From Phytoactinopolyspora halophila (GTDB taxonomy: Bacteria > Actinomycetota > Actinomycetes > Jiangellales > Jiangellaceae), in assembly GCF_003287285.1 (NCBI RefSeq), contig NZ_QMIG01000005.1, forward strand, positions 1 to 64,000: a stretch of 64,000 nucleotides of DNA, read 5' to 3'. How positions within the stretch are numbered: position 1 is the first letter of the stretch; every line of letters starts with the position of its first letter. Both the position numbers and the translations under genes were made by a program. The notes beneath the pieces were generated by a model, which searched no databases, was not told the origin of the DNA, and was given only the letters and a program-made list of their open reading frames with translations. This document shows positions 3,039 through 53,433 of the stretch, one piece after another.

Positions 3039-3097
3039 CCCGCTGATCATGAACACTAGGTGAGTACATAGGTCGATTAATGTTCATGATCAGCGGG
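3039..3097. repeat. 59-bp palindromic element, copy 1
   Basis: The arms begin CCCGCTGATCATGAACA and pair perfectly for 17 bases with the right end; the centre is degenerate. It lies inside the leftward operon, between the DUF993 gene and the isomerase gene. The TGA stop of the DUF993 gene is the TGA of the element's TGATCA. Confidence 0.93.
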
Positions 3098-7728: not shown

Positions 7729-8090
7729 GCGTCGACGAGCATGAGATCGGCACGGTGCTCGTCGCGCTCGCGGACCCGACCCGGCGCGAGCTCCTGGATG
7801 CGCTGGCCGAGGAGGGACAGGCGAGCGCGACGACCCTGGCCGGTCGCCTTCCGGTGTCTCGCCAGGCCGTCGTCAAACACCTTCGAGTCCTGGAGGAGGC
7901 CGGTCTGGTCCGATACGGCCGGTTGGGACGGGAGGTGCTGTACGAAGTTCGCCCGGCACCTCTCGATTCCTCGGCCCGGTGGCTGGCGGAACGCGCTGCG
8001 GCGTGGGACCGTCGCCTCGAAGCGATCAAACGGGTCGCCGAGAACCCGCCGGCCCGCCCATCTGATAAACCCGCTGATCATGAACACTAG
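7725..8090 (+). CDS. ArsR-type winged-helix transcriptional regulator
   Basis: The 121-residue protein has a winged helix: L-A-D-P-T-R-R-E-L-L-D-A-L, then a recognition helix around V-S-R-Q-A-V-V-K-H-L and a wing ending G-R-E-V-L-Y-E-V. No metal-binding Cys pair is present, so it is the non-metal ArsR subgroup that accompanies AHSA1 proteins. It is translationally coupled to the AHSA1 gene. Its last seven residues and TAG stop are encoded by a palindromic element, giving an unusual D-H-E-H tail. Confidence 0.88.
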   Translation: MSVDEHEIGTVLVALADPTRRELLDALAEEGQASATTLAGRLPVSRQAVVKHLRVLEEAGLVRYGRLGREVLYEVRPAPLDSSARWLAERAAAWDRRLEAIKRVAENPPARPSDKPADHEH

Positions 8091-8128
8091 TCGACCTCAT
8101 GGGTCGCTTAGTGTTCATGATCAGCGGG
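8070..8128. repeat. 59-bp palindromic element, copy 2
   Basis: The arms CCCGCTGATCATGAACACTA pair perfectly over 20 bases. The element lies between converging genes and supplies both stop codons: TAG of the ArsR gene at 8088-8090 and TGA of the LacI gene at 8123-8121. It may act as a bidirectional terminator. Confidence 0.95.
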
Positions 8129-14338: not shown

Positions 14339-15009
14339 TTCCGCAGTCGCGTCCGTCGACGGAGTGGCGCGGGAACCACGCGCGGCGAACCGGCAGGCGT
14401 CGCAGGTTCCTCTGGCTGCACGTCCGCGCCCGCGGTGTCGTGCTGGCGGCGGCAGGCGTGGCGGCCGTGGCGCTGGTGGCGTGGTGGGCCGCGGGGTGGC
14501 TGGTGAATCTCGAATGGACCGGCGGCGCCGATGCGCGGGTTCCGGTGGTGGTCGGGGCTCCGCTGCTCGGTTCCGTCCTCGTCTCTGCCGGTCTGGAGGG
14601 AAAGGACGAGGAATTCGAACGGTCACTGGCGGTGCGATGGCCGGTGTTCCGGTCGATACACGTCGCCGGTGCCGCGCTGGCCATCGGCGCGCCGCTGGCC
14701 GTGACGGGCCTGTGGGAGCCGCGCGTGTACGGCGCGTTCGAGCTGGTCCGAAACACCCTGGGGTTTCTTGGCCTGGTCACGCTGGCGGCCGTCGTTGTGG
14801 GTGCGCGGCTAGCCTGGTTCCTGCCATTCGGCTTCGCCGGAGTGATCTACATCGCCACGCCGCAGCCGCTCACCGAGGCGACAGCGTGGTGGACGTGGCC
14901 GGTGCAGCAGTGGAGCTCCGGCGTGGCCGCGTGGACGGCGGCGGCTCTGTTCGTCGTCGGGACTCTGGCGTACGTCGTTCTGGGTTCCCGCCGCGCTCAT
15001 TCCCGCTGA
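14335..15009 (+). CDS. Polytopic membrane protein of the ECF-ABC operon
   Basis: The 224-residue protein has a very basic N terminus and about five or six hydrophobic helices. It begins at a TTG that overlaps the preceding stop (TTGA) and ends inside a palindromic element, which supplies its TGA. It has no recognised family; position suggests a second subunit of the ABC exporter. Confidence 0.68.
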   Translation: MIPQSRPSTEWRGNHARRTGRRRRFLWLHVRARGVVLAAAGVAAVALVAWWAAGWLVNLEWTGGADARVPVVVGAPLLGSVLVSAGLEGKDEEFERSLAVRWPVFRSIHVAGAALAIGAPLAVTGLWEPRVYGAFELVRNTLGFLGLVTLAAVVVGARLAWFLPFGFAGVIYIATPQPLTEATAWWTWPVQQWSSGVAAWTAAALFVVGTLAYVVLGSRRAHSR

Positions 15010-36477: not shown

Positions 36478-36537
36478 CCCCATGATCATGAACACTAACT
36501 CGGCATATACGGCGATTTAGTGTTCATGATCATGGGG
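36478..36537. repeat. 60-bp palindromic element, copy 4 (variant ends)
   Basis: The arms CCCCATGATCATGAACACTA(A) are perfectly complementary over 21 bases. The outer bases (CCCCATG instead of CCCGCTG) change in both arms together, so pairing is preserved. It lies between the binding-protein gene and the permease gene of one operon, the position where REP elements stabilise malE-type mRNA in enterobacteria. Confidence 0.93.
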
Positions 36538-38408: not shown

Positions 38409-39122
38409 ATGGGCACCACGGCTGTTGCCCGCGTGCTGCGACCGGCTCCGCAGGCGACCTACGAGAAGATCTTCGGCACGGTCTACGTCGGCCTGATGGT
38501 CAACGTCCTGCTGGCCGTGGCGTGCTCGCCACTGCTGCTGGCGCTGGCGATCGTGCGCGATCCGATCGCGTCCTGGCCGTTCTTCCTCGCGATGTCCGGA
38601 CTGTGCGCGCCCGCGTTGGCCGGGGCGTTCGGCTGTTTCGCCCGGATGGGCGAGGACGGTGGAACGCGCGTGCTCCATCCGTTCTGGACCACATACGCGC
38701 GCACCGCCCGGCGCGCCGTCGGGGTCTGGATGATCGGTGCCGTGCTTGTCGGCGTGCTGCTGTTCGATGCCCTGCTGGTCGCGCGGATGGCGTGGGGTCC
38801 GGCGCTGGTGCCGTTCTTCATCACGACATCGGCGCTCGCCGGCACCGTCGTCGTCGGCGTTATCGTGCTGGCCGTCGACCGTCCCGACCTCGGACTGCGC
38901 CAGATGGTGCGGTCGTGCGTCTACCTGCTGGCTCGCCGCTGGTACCTCGCGACCGCGAACGTCGCTGTCCTGGGGCTGGCCGTCGCTGTCGTCCTGGTCA
39001 AACCCGTGATCGGGATGCTGGTGGCGTGCGCGCCCCTGCTCTACGTGGCGTGGGCGAACACCCGCTACGCCCTCGCCCCGCTGCTCCCTGCCGATGATCA
39101 TCGGCACTTTGCCCAGCCATAG
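38409..39122 (+). CDS. DUF624 (YesL-like) membrane protein
   Basis: The 237-residue protein has about five or six transmembrane helices and the DUF624/YesL pattern near the N terminus (Y-E-K-I-F-G-T-V-Y-V-G-L). YesL-like proteins accompany importers for plant cell-wall oligosaccharides, but their role is not established. The last residues (D-D-H-R-H-F-A-Q-P) and TAG stop are encoded by a palindromic repeat. Confidence 0.83.
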   Translation: MGTTAVARVLRPAPQATYEKIFGTVYVGLMVNVLLAVACSPLLLALAIVRDPIASWPFFLAMSGLCAPALAGAFGCFARMGEDGGTRVLHPFWTTYARTARRAVGVWMIGAVLVGVLLFDALLVARMAWGPALVPFFITTSALAGTVVVGVIVLAVDRPDLGLRQMVRSCVYLLARRWYLATANVAVLGLAVAVVLVKPVIGMLVACAPLLYVAWANTRYALAPLLPADDHRHFAQP

Positions 39123-39144
39123 TGCTTGAAAATGCCGATGATCA
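39095..39144. repeat. 50-bp palindromic element of a second, related family
   Basis: The arms TGATCATCGGCACTTT and AAAATGCCGATGATCA pair with one mismatch over 16 bases. They share the TGATCA core with the 59-bp family but differ otherwise. The stop codon of the DUF624 gene lies in its loop. Confidence 0.8.
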
Positions 39145-49356: not shown

Positions 49357-49369
49357 GTGGGGAGTGGTC

Positions 49370-50824
49370 GTGGTGAAGTCCGAGTTGCAGCGCGACCTCC
49401 TCGACATCCTCGGAGCCGACGGGCTGGTGACGGAGTGGGCGCAGCGCCGCACCTACGAGGCCGACGGCCTCGCCGCGTACCGGTCCGTTCCGGCACTCGT
49501 GGCGCTTCCGAGTTCTGCGGATGACGTCGCGGCCGTGATGCGTGCGTGTGTCCGGCACGGTGTGCCGGTGGTTCCCCGGGGCGCCGGAACCGGCCTGTCC
49601 GCTGGAGCACTCCCGCATCCCGAGGGTGTGCTGATCGTCATGTCCCGGATGCACCGCATCCTCGACATCGACCCGGTGAATCAGCGGATCGTGGTCGAAC
49701 CGGGTGTCACCAACGCGGCGATCAGCCGTGCGGTCAGCGAGCACGACCTCTATTACGCGCCGGACCCGTCGAGCCAGATCGTGTGTTCCATCGGCGGCAA
49801 CCTCGCCGAGAACTCGGGCGGGGCGCACTGCTTGAAGTACGGATTCACGACGCATCACGTGCTGGGATGTGAGCTCGTGCTGCCGGACGGTGAGACCGTC
49901 GAGCTCGGCTCTTCCACCCTCGATCCGCCCGGATATGACCTGCGTGGCGTGCTCGTCGGCTCGGAGGGAACGCTCGGCGTGGTCACGAAGATCACGCTAC
50001 GGCTGTTGCGCCGTCCGGAGGCCGTCCGCACGCTGGTCGCCGACTTCGAGAGCCCGGCCGCGGCCGGCGTCGCGGTGAGCGCGATCGTCGCTGCCGGGAT
50101 CGTGCCGGCGGCGGTGGAGATGATGGACAATCTCGCCATCCAGGCGTGCGAGGAAGACGCGGCGGCAGGGTTCGACGTGTCCTCGGGCGCGGCATTGATC
50201 GTGGAACTGGACGGCCCGGCGGCCGAGTGTGACGCCGCGTTCGCCGAGACGGTCGCGTTATGCCAGGAATCCGGGTCGACGGCGATTCGCGTTGCCGACG
50301 ACCCGCAAGAGCGTGCTCTGGTGTGGAAGGGCCGCAAGGCCGCGTTCGCGGCCATGGGCCGGCTGGCGCCAGACTACTTCGTCCAGGACGGCGTCATCCC
50401 GCGCACGCGGCTGGGCGAGTGCCTCGCCCGGATCGCGGAGATGGCCGCGGAAGCCGATCTCCGGGTGGCGAATGTGTTCCACGCCGGTGATGGAAACTTG
50501 CATCCACTCGTCCTCTACGACAGTGCGAATCCCGGCGAGGGTGAACGCGCGGAGTCGCTGTCTGCGCGGATCGCCGAGCTGTGCGTCGAGTTCGGAGGCT
50601 CGCTCTCGGGCGAGCACGGCATCGGCGTGGACAAGGCGTGTTCGATGCCGACCATGTTCGGCGCCGACGATCTCGCCGTCATGGACCGCGTACGCGCGGC
50701 GTTCGATCCGGCGGGCCGCTGCAACCCCGACAAGGTGCTGCCGACGCCGCGGCTATGTGGCGAGAAACCCGGACCGTACCGGCCGCACCCCCTGGAGGCG
50801 GCCGGCGTGATCGAGCGGTTGTGA
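49370..50824 (+). CDS. glcD: Glycolate oxidase, FAD-binding subunit
   Basis: The protein has about 484 residues, an FAD-binding PCMH domain ([23 protein letters not shown]) and a C-terminal FAD-linked oxidase domain with H-A-G-D-G-N-L-H-P and G-E-H-G-I-G. It oxidises glycolate or a related 2-hydroxy acid to the oxo acid. Several GTGs (49364, 49370, 49373) are possible starts after GGGGAG. The glcE and glcF genes follow directly, giving the classic three-subunit arrangement. Confidence 0.93.
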   Translation: MVKSELQRDLLDILGADGLVTEWAQRRTYEADGLAAYRSVPALVALPSSADDVAAVMRACVRHGVPVVPRGAGTGLSAGALPHPEGVLIVMSRMHRILDIDPVNQRIVVEPGVTNAAISRAVSEHDLYYAPDPSSQIVCSIGGNLAENSGGAHCLKYGFTTHHVLGCELVLPDGETVELGSSTLDPPGYDLRGVLVGSEGTLGVVTKITLRLLRRPEAVRTLVADFESPAAAGVAVSAIVAAGIVPAAVEMMDNLAIQACEEDAAAGFDVSSGAALIVELDGPAAECDAAFAETVALCQESGSTAIRVADDPQERALVWKGRKAAFAAMGRLAPDYFVQDGVIPRTRLGECLARIAEMAAEADLRVANVFHAGDGNLHPLVLYDSANPGEGERAESLSARIAELCVEFGGSLSGEHGIGVDKACSMPTMFGADDLAVMDRVRAAFDPAGRCNPDKVLPTPRLCGEKPGPYRPHPLEAAGVIERL

Positions 50825-50826
50825 GC

Positions 50827-52167
50827 ATGATGCATCCCGAAGCGGGGACCGTTGCCGAAGCGCAGGCGAGCTATCGCCCGGCGGAGCTGGCGGGCGCCCG
50901 GGAGGCGGTGCTCGCGGCGCGGCAGGCGGATACGAACGTGCTGGTGCGCGGCAGCGGCTCGAAGCTGCGGTGGGGTGCCCGCCCGGCCGGTGAGCGGCCG
51001 TGGTCGGTCATCGACACGCGTGCGCTGAATCGGCTGATCCACCACGAGCCGGGTGACATGACCGCCACGGTTCAGGCGGGGATGCCGCTGCACGAGTTGC
51101 AGGAGCAGCTCGCCGTCGCCGGCCAGGAGCTGGCCGTGGATCCGCCGCGGGCGGCACGTGGCGCCACCGTCGGGGGCGTCTACGTGGCGAACGACGCCGG
51201 TCCGCGCCGGCTGGCCTATGGCGGCATCCGTGACCTCGTGATCGGCACCACCGTGGTGCTGGCTGACGGAACGGTGGGGCGAAGCGGCGGGACCGTGATC
51301 AAGAACGTCGCGGGCTACGATCTCAACCGGCTCTGGTGTGGCTCGCTGGGCACGCTCGCGCTCGTCGTCGAGATGACCGTGCGGCTGCACCCGCGGCCGG
51401 AGGCCTCGCGCACGGTGCTGATTCCGGCGTCGGCTGGGGACGCGACGGCATTCGTGCTCGACGTGCTGGCCAGCCCGGTCGAATGCGCCCTTCTCGAATG
51501 GTCCGCCCCCGCTCCCACCCAACCCCAAGACCCGCTGATCATGAACACTAATCGACCTCATAGGTCGATTAGTGTTCATGATCAGCGGGGTCAGGCCGGG
51601 GGTGGCGGGTGGCTGCTTGTCGGGCTGGAAGGCCGGGCGGCCGGGCTCGACGCCCGGGTGGACCAGCTAGTCGACGTCGCACGGCGGCACGACCTGGCTG
51701 CCGAACCCGCTGACGGCGAGGACGGGCTGTGGGACGCCTGGCGGGAGGCGCACGCCGGCACGGCGGGCGACGACGGCGCTGAGGGGGAAGCCGAGGGGGA
51801 AACGGTCGCGCGAGCGGCGACGCTGCCGAGCCAGCTGGCGGACGTCGCCGGCGGCCTGCATCGTGCCGCCGACGCGAGCGGCGTCGAGGCGCGCCTGCAC
51901 AGCCACGCTGGCCTGGGCCTGCACGATGCGATCATCACCGGCGCCGATCCGGCCGCACACGCGGCGACGGTCACGGCCTGGCGCGAGCACGTGTGCGCGC
52001 TCGGCGGGAGCGTCGTCGTCCGGGACCGTCCGGACGGCCTGGACGGCCTGGTGGACCCGTGGGGCGAGCCCCGATCCGCGCAACTAGTGAAGCTGTCGAG
52101 ATCGGTGAAGCGGGCGCTGGACCCGGAAGGACGGTTCGCACCCGGCCGATTCTTGGGAGGCCTGTAG
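50827..52167 (+). CDS. glcE: Glycolate oxidase GlcE subunit carrying an in-frame palindromic insertion
   Basis: The 446-residue protein has an FAD-binding PCMH domain (V-R-G-S-G-S-K-L-R-W-G; G-G-T-V-I-K-N-V-A-G-Y-D-L) and a C-terminal region typical of GlcE (~350-420 residues is usual). Around residues 235-255 a palindromic repeat is translated in frame, giving P-L-I-M-N-T-N-R-P-H-R-S and V-H-D-Q-R-G between a Pro/Ala-rich stretch and a Gly-rich stretch. This separates L-L-E-W from W-L-L-V-G-L-E-G, two adjacent core strands in GlcE proteins. The reading frame is otherwise intact, so function may be retained. It starts two bases after the glcD stop and abuts glcF. Confidence 0.9.
   Translation: MMHPEAGTVAEAQASYRPAELAGAREAVLAARQADTNVLVRGSGSKLRWGARPAGERPWSVIDTRALNRLIHHEPGDMTATVQAGMPLHELQEQLAVAGQELAVDPPRAARGATVGGVYVANDAGPRRLAYGGIRDLVIGTTVVLADGTVGRSGGTVIKNVAGYDLNRLWCGSLGTLALVVEMTVRLHPRPEASRTVLIPASAGDATAFVLDVLASPVECALLEWSAPAPTQPQDPLIMNTNRPHRSISVHDQRGQAGGGGWLLVGLEGRAAGLDARVDQLVDVARRHDLAAEPADGEDGLWDAWREAHAGTAGDDGAEGEAEGETVARAATLPSQLADVAGGLHRAADASGVEARLHSHAGLGLHDAIITGADPAAHAATVTAWREHVCALGGSVVVRDRPDGLDGLVDPWGEPRSAQLVKLSRSVKRALDPEGRFAPGRFLGGL
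51531..51589. repeat. 59-bp palindromic element, copy 5, inside glcE
   Basis: The arms are 28 bases each, perfectly complementary around a 3-base loop, starting CCCGCTGATCATGAACACTA. This is the most perfect copy in the window. It is read in the only one of the three forward frames that has no stop codon. Confidence 0.97.
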
Positions 52168-53433
52168 ATGGACCGCGAGCTGATCGACGACTGTGTGCAC
52201 TGTGGGTTCTGCCTGCCGGCGTGCCCGACGTACAGCCTGTGGGGCGAGGAGATGGACTCGCCCCGGGGCCGGATCTACCTGATGAAGACCGCGCTCGAGG
52301 GCGACACGCCGATCGACTCCACGTGGGTCGGGCACATGGACGCGTGCCTGGGCTGCATGGCCTGCGTGCCGGCGTGCCCGTCGGGCGTGAAGTACGGCGA
52401 GCTGATCGAGTCGGCGCGGGCGACCATCGAACGGGATTACCGGCGCCCGTGGCGGGACCGGCTGTTCCGTTCGCTGCTGTTCCGGATGTTCCCCGGCCGG
52501 CGACGGCTGCGGCTGGCGGCCGCATTGGGCTGGCTCTACCAGCGCTCGGGCCTGGCCACCCTGGTGCGGCGCAGCGGCGTGCGCGGCCGGCTTCCCGCGC
52601 GCTTGCAGGCCCTCGAATCGCTGATGCCGTCCACGACGCTTCGCGCTGTCACCCGGCGTACCCCGCGGCTGACGCCCGCGGAGGGTGAGCGCCGCCAGCG
52701 GGTCGGGTTCCTCACGGGGTGCATCCAGGAGGTCTTCTTCGGCGACGTGAACGCCGCTACGGTCCGGGTGCTGGCCGCGGAGGGGTGCGAGGTGGTCGCC
52801 CCGCCCGCGCAGGGCTGCTGCGGCGCGCTCGAACTGCACGGCGGGCGGGAGGCGGGCGCCCTGGATCGGGCCCGCTCCGTCGTCGACGTCTTCGCGCCGC
52901 TGGAACTCGACGCGATCGTGGTGAACGCGGCCGGGTGCGGATCGGCGTTGAAGGACTACGGCCGCCTGCTGGCCGACGATCCCGATTACGCCGAGCGGGC
53001 CGCCGCGTTCGCCGGCAAGGTTCGGGACGTCACCGAGGTACTGGCCGGCTTGCCGCCCCGGCAGAGTTATGGCCAGCTCGACGTGACGGTCGCGTACCAC
53101 GACGCGTGCCATCTCGCCAACGCGCAGCGCATTACCTCCGAGCCGCGGAACCTCCTGCAGCGGGTGCCCGGCCTCCAGCTGCGCCCGGTGCTGGACGACG
53201 GCATCTGCTGCGGCTCGGCCGGTATCTACAACCTGGTCGAGCCGGAGGCCGCGGGCGAGCTGGGCCGGCGCAAGGCGGAGGCGCTCGCGTCCACCGGTGC
53301 GCAGATGGTGGTCACCACGAATCCGGGTTGTGCCCTTCAGATCGCGCGGGAGCTCGATCGCCCGGTGGTGCATCCGGTCCAGATCCTCGCGTCGGCGCTG
53401 GGCGAGCGGGCGCTGGAGGCGAGCTCATCATGA
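52168..53433 (+). CDS. glcF: Glycolate oxidase iron-sulfur subunit
   Basis: The 421-residue protein has two 4Fe-4S motifs, C-x2-C-x2-C-x3-C-P at Cys9-19 and Cys60-70, and two CCG-type domains (G-C-C-G-A-L-E and C-C-G-S-A-G-I-Y). It passes electrons from the flavin subunits to the respiratory chain. Its ATG follows directly on the glcE stop, with GGAGG upstream. Confidence 0.95.
   Translation: MDRELIDDCVHCGFCLPACPTYSLWGEEMDSPRGRIYLMKTALEGDTPIDSTWVGHMDACLGCMACVPACPSGVKYGELIESARATIERDYRRPWRDRLFRSLLFRMFPGRRRLRLAAALGWLYQRSGLATLVRRSGVRGRLPARLQALESLMPSTTLRAVTRRTPRLTPAEGERRQRVGFLTGCIQEVFFGDVNAATVRVLAAEGCEVVAPPAQGCCGALELHGGREAGALDRARSVVDVFAPLELDAIVVNAAGCGSALKDYGRLLADDPDYAERAAAFAGKVRDVTEVLAGLPPRQSYGQLDVTVAYHDACHLANAQRITSEPRNLLQRVPGLQLRPVLDDGICCGSAGIYNLVEPEAAGELGRRKAEALASTGAQMVVTTNPGCALQIARELDRPVVHPVQILASALGERALEASSS

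Follow-up and report, generated by a model that had tools for sequence, protein, structure and literature searches.

The palindrome inside glcE is probably one copy of a dispersed, non-autonomous family of mobile palindromes resembling REPs and RPEs, whose in-gene members would be the survivors that entered in an open frame at a tolerant place. It was found in a stretch of 64,000 nt, hereafter the window, with the following features at the locus.

49364-50824, plus strand: glcD, upstream partner of glcE (NF008408, E 1.5e-167, under its cut-off)
50827-52167, plus strand: glcE, FAD-binding subunit of glycolate oxidase, 446 aa (PF01565, PF02913, and NF008439 with E 8e-52, under the model's cut-off)
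51508-51530, plus strand: left flank, C-rich and translated as Pro/Ala-rich residues, belonging to the inserted unit
51531-51589, unstranded: perfect palindromic element in glcE, 28-nt arms, 100% complementary
51536-51584: core of the palindrome, TGATCATGAACA...TGTTCATGATCA, common to 105 extracted copies
51590-51612, plus strand: G-rich right flank, read as Gly-rich residues, partial complement of the left flank
52168-53433, plus strand: glcF, downstream partner of glcE (NF008434, E 1.8e-100, over cut-off)

The two arms (51531-51558 and 51562-51589) are separated by a 3-nt loop, and RNA folding of 51505-51620 gave -81.2 kcal/mol, with a z of -11.3 against shuffles of the same sequence. The element is read in the glcE frame as CTG ATC ATG AAC ACT AAT CGA CCT CAT AGG TCG ATT AGT GTT CAT GAT CAG, and the remaining two forward frames end at CGC-TGA and CAC-TAA. 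The first-pass annotation had described a palindrome lying in frame inside glcE and translated in the only open frame of the three, and both statements were borne out: the 28-nt arms are exact, glcE is open from ATG to TAG, and homologues in five relatives lack the element at this site. It had also called this the most perfect copy, which holds for the window, where it is the sole fully complementary member of the family; other perfect copies are present elsewhere in the genome.

The translated insert corresponds to about residues 236-255 of GlcE. Compared with the element-free glcE of G008, which belongs to another genus, the gene has 118 nt in place of 31 nt, which makes it longer by 87 nt or 29 codons, and the flanks are thus part of the insert. 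The Pro/Ala and Gly stretches that had been noted on either side are missing in element-free homologues, and they are present because most copies genome-wide have a C-rich flank on the left and a G-rich one on the right (consensus CCGC and GCGG, mutually paired). Aligning GlcE with insert-free homologues, as had been proposed, separated five relatives without the element from two with it. In the five that were checked closely (G004, G005, G008, G013 and Phytoactinopolyspora limicola, G007) the site was read through, and P. halotolerans (G010) and P. endophytica (G012) carry the element at the same site and in the same frame, each with its own lineage's inner stem. A concatenated tree grouped the draft genome containing the window (G000) with these two species (support 85/91), so that one ancestral insertion behind the three glcE copies is possible. 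Third codon positions at identical residues outside the insert agreed at only 52-57% among the three glcE genes, while the arm codons of the insert, many of them T-ending, were nearly unchanged, suggesting that the nucleotide sequence of the insert was either kept or renewed. An AlphaFold model of GlcE built from six sequences was of low confidence (mean pLDDT 61); it agreed with the earlier placement of the insert between two core strands, with residues 231-259 modelled as disordered (pLDDT < 50) between strands 222-227 and 261-269.

With up to two mismatches allowed, the window has 11 occurrences of the word TGATCATGAACACTA, where shuffled sequence would give 0.02. The further palindromes in the window were as follows.

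3044-3092, unstranded: second copy, intergenic, at the 3' end of one of two tandem minus-strand genes
8075-8123, unstranded: third copy, between convergent genes, containing one of their stop codons
15007-15055, unstranded: fourth copy, its first TGA being the stop of gene 14440-15009
36483-36532, unstranded: fifth copy, directly behind a plus-strand gene
39095-39144, unstranded: sixth palindrome, of sister subfamily TGATCATCGGC, overlapping the stop codon and 3' end of gene 38433-39122

Across the whole draft genome (5.04 Mb, 77 contigs) there were 180 exact matches to the 15-mer TGATCATGAACACTA and none to the reversed control word. A relaxed pattern gave 119 closed pairs, and the superfamily total, sister subfamilies counted, was 158. 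The family itself is put at 100-150 copies. From regions fetched around pattern matches, 105 complete copies were extracted. Their 12-bp arms, TGATCATGAACA, were 93-100% conserved, and the core was exactly 49 nt in 81 of the 105 and 47-50 nt in all but one. The inner stem and flanks varied yet stayed paired, with z up to 8 beyond shuffled flank pairs. The copies have terminal inverted repeats and no transposase coding capacity, as is characteristic of MITEs. Near position 1841 of L189 in the same genome, one copy appeared to be nested at the centre of an apparently older palindrome (CCCGTGATCATGGTTCCGG ... CCGGAACCATGATCACGGG).

Several other identities were considered and rejected. A single motif of the DNA-uptake type was rejected because the arms are almost always paired, with one loose two-mismatch word in the window. 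Plasmid or phage origin was rejected for lack of any meaningful match among plasmids, phages and viral contigs. Known RNA families gave nothing above threshold, only resemblances to hairpin models such as miRNAs, and a canonical intrinsic terminator was dismissed because the hairpin has no T-tract behind it.

Gene context, taken from our own codon-score gene finder and not from a standard annotation, placed the copies of G000 between 38 convergent, 45 tandem and 10 divergent gene pairs (convergent versus divergent, p 6e-5). The adjoining gene 3' ends lay inside the copy or at most 60 nt away in 122 of 126 cases, and 61 of them ended inside the element. The location pattern was alike for 86 copies from Phytoactinopolyspora loci.

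Four of the 105 copies in G000 lie within genes (GlcE, CydD, PaaD and an acyl-CoA ligase), every one in an open frame. Each adds about 17-20 residues in a loop or linker and yields a peptide of the type (M/L)IMNT...SVHD(H/Q). The three copies besides that of GlcE were located in their proteins as follows.

CydD, residues about 346-362: insert at the junction of the membrane and ATPase domains (TIGR02857, 631 bits, over cut-off)
PaaD, residues about 134-150: insert separating the FeS-assembly domain from the zinc ribbon (TIGR02159, over cut-off)
Acyl-CoA ligase, residues about 400-416: insert between PF00501 and PF13193

Homologues of CydD and PaaD within the family are without the element. Long alignments had raised the possibility that PaaD of G010 and G012 shared it, which was ruled out since their linkers contain other sequence. 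Outside G000, P. halotolerans has one copy in a 740-aa protein that matched no protein family, and a NUDIX protein of P. endophytica carries another at its end. An E2 acyltransferase of G008 includes a translated copy of the TGATCATCGGC subfamily, which separates its E3-binding domain from the catalytic one. A further palindrome, GTGGCGGAGAAGCATGCCAC (loci L222, L230, L262-L267), is unrelated to this family and has complementary, locus-specific outer stems; it was seen in G011 and G004. It also stands in frame (SVAEKHATE or SVAEKHATD) in the CydD linker, once in G008 and twice in G005, and this is the same linker that the first family uses in G000.

Mobility of the family was well supported by comparing orthologous sites, several of which are occupied in one species and vacant in another, so that copies have been gained or lost. 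The cleanest pair was a 62-nt TGATCATTAACC insertion in P. endophytica that is empty in P. halotolerans, with a changed end of the upstream gene; this single clean pair belongs to a sister subfamily, and for the GAACA subfamily the direct pairs are at loci that have diverged. By our reading of both sequences of the L098/L077 pair, the empty species has a small GC hairpin where the other has the element. No target-site duplication was evident at the filled/empty pairs. Because two or three genera share some occupied sites, the interiors being lineage-specific, these sites may be either recurrent target sites or sites at which copies were rewritten; ancient elements homogenised in place would also fit. 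The transposase domain Y1_Tnp (PF01797) was found in 0 of 22 family genomes, compared to matches in 5 of 14 control genomes, and RAYT/IS200 mobilisation was rejected on this ground. No autonomous IS with TGATCAT-type ends was found in the parts read, where small contigs stand as N.

Most arms without a partner stood at contig ends, where an unrelated IS-like sequence had broken the contig. Nine contig ends of G000 (L138, L140, L142, L161, L164, L172, L187, L200, L207) break at this sequence, which is inserted at CATG in the palindrome loop and has the ends GGCAGGTTCAATCGGTGCTTGCAA and GGCGGGCTCAAGCGGTGCTTGCAA; the same ends occur in L337 and L006. The IS-like sequence had no plasmid match. REPs are known IS targets (PMC1525189).

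The relatives searched also included a Jiangellaceae MAG (G003). A pattern search did not find the GAACA form in twelve genomes of genus g2 or in two of g6. The superfamily was defined more widely as TGATCAT...ATGATCA over 48-51 nt with variable but self-complementary interiors, and the corresponding pattern TGATCAT-N34-37-ATGATCA gave 2-113 copies of other subfamilies in the g2 and g6 genomes. Nearly all Jiangellaceae genomes searched had 2-188 copies, with 188 in P. limicola and zero only in the incomplete genome G002; the reversed control gave at most one per genome. Outside Jiangellaceae, a few Actinomycete families (G026, G050, G101, G168) had true palindromes in low numbers, and many single matches in other genomes were unpaired chance matches. 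The broader proposal is that these palindromes form an undescribed actinomycete mobile superfamily of many subfamilies with lineage-specific stems, which would spread without a RAYT-type transposase, repeatedly enter enzyme domain linkers in frame, and be kept or rewritten in place with fixed ends and stems that change by genome. We consider the chances of this proposal to be evenly balanced.

In the mechanism that we favour, copies would spread through an enzyme acting on the palindrome or on its single-stranded hairpin. Insertions into coding sequence would survive only in the one stop-free frame and only where about 20-30 extra residues are tolerated, such as the strand-connecting loop in GlcE and the domain linkers in the other enzymes. 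In the two stop-containing frames, insertions would survive only near the 3' end, and the element would then supply the new stop codon. From survival only in an open frame at a tolerant place it follows that the glcE copy is most likely a tolerated passenger. A putative effect of the hairpin on glcE-glcF expression is possible and would be masked under translating ribosomes.

The strong bias toward gene 3' ends and convergent pairs, the very stable hairpin, and pairing that is kept though the sequence varies could also indicate that the repeats are selected functional 3'-end elements, either bidirectional terminators or mRNA-stabilising hairpins, with the glcE copy acting as an attenuator or polarity element. 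However, among 210 flank sides only 1 had a T-tract, glcE showed no terminator-like site, and by a count on the gene list only one of about five convergent pairs in the window has a copy. The copy number also varies from 2 to 188 among relatives, and for REPs, which have the same 3' bias, a general role in termination is unproven (PMC3733652). We regard this explanation as rather unlikely, although it is the strongest competitor to a mobile family.

If the palindromes were binding sites of a DNA-binding protein, such as one in chromosome organisation, they would have been shaped by that protein and not by transposition, and the near-invariant 12-bp half sites with nearly fixed spacing (49 nt in 81/105), conserved across genera, are what this would predict. 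Yet half sites nearly always occur in closed palindromes, only TGATCAT is common to several subfamilies, and filled and empty sites differ by entire hairpins plus flanks, and we regard this origin as improbable. It is more doubtful still that selection has favoured the glcE insert for its peptide, as a useful segment of the protein. That three species have the insert in frame in GlcE, and may owe it to a single ancestral event (clade support 85/91), would agree with such selection, but the same type of peptide occurs in unrelated enzymes, the inner residues differ among species where the nucleotide arms do not, the insert codons are those of the element and not of the host, and GlcE is intact in relatives without the insert. 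A mobile palindrome family with tolerated in-gene copies remains the preferred interpretation.

The first-pass annotation had regarded translated palindromic repeats as known mainly from Rickettsia, which proved too narrow, since in-frame copies of REP, ERIC and Correia elements have been published (PMC2229807, PMC3733652). In-frame palindromic repeats are also described from Wolbachia, and for YPAL, the 107-bp Correia element and ERIC (PMC2229807); in-frame fusions with genes are reported for these three element types as well as for RPEs (PMC2229807; PMC10969869). Intragenic GTAG/CGTC REPs occur in several species, with the most in Opitutus terrae and R. conorii, and Di Nocera et al. argued that elements inserted into flexible linkers may be neutral (PMC3733652). 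Their paper makes no mention of Actinobacteria, and no actinomycete example of a translated palindromic repeat was found in the literature searched. A text search with the repeat's sequence words, judged by title and abstract and with subscription journals outside its scope, returned no paper on the element. With the present case the range of translated palindromic repeats comes to include a high-GC actinomycete family that is free-living, and the same logic of one open frame and loop or linker tolerance applies there. It also offers a many-genome system for the spread of palindromic repeats without a RAYT transposase, with changing stems and fixed ends, and a warning for annotation that gene ends and linkers in Jiangellaceae may consist of repeat DNA.

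Among known systems, RPEs (Ogata et al. 2000, 2002), as far as the review PMC2229807 describes them, are similar in being both intergenic and intragenic, with one frame translated in unrelated conserved genes. In contrast to their length of about 105-150 bp, the core here is 48-51 nt, or 59 nt with the perfect arms of glcE. RPE sequences of R. conorii end in a CGTC tag (PMC3733652), whereas the present ends are TGATCAT with no tag in a GC-rich host, a distinction made by description. GTAG/CGTC REPs share the short, high-copy palindromes behind genes at convergent and tandem ORFs, some intragenic copies, and complementary stem changes in hairpins (PMC3733652). Unlike these, the present family lacks a terminal unpaired GTAG or CGTC tag, since the CCGC and GCGG flanks pair, and has near-fixed length and conserved symmetric ends; the cognate Y1/RAYT transposase of the GTAG type was not found in the 22 Jiangellaceae genomes. 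YPAL/RU-2, ERIC and the 107-bp Correia element are likewise MITE-like and sometimes form in-frame gene fusions, and YPAL targets lie in or beside dyad symmetry, with filled and empty sites known (PMC2229807); these elements are about 100-170 bp, come from other phyla and were set apart by description. As a variant among repeats of a known kind, the family departs from REPs in the tag and RAYT and from RPEs in length. Set apart by tag, RAYT and length, and partly by description, the actinomycete palindrome family appears to be new.
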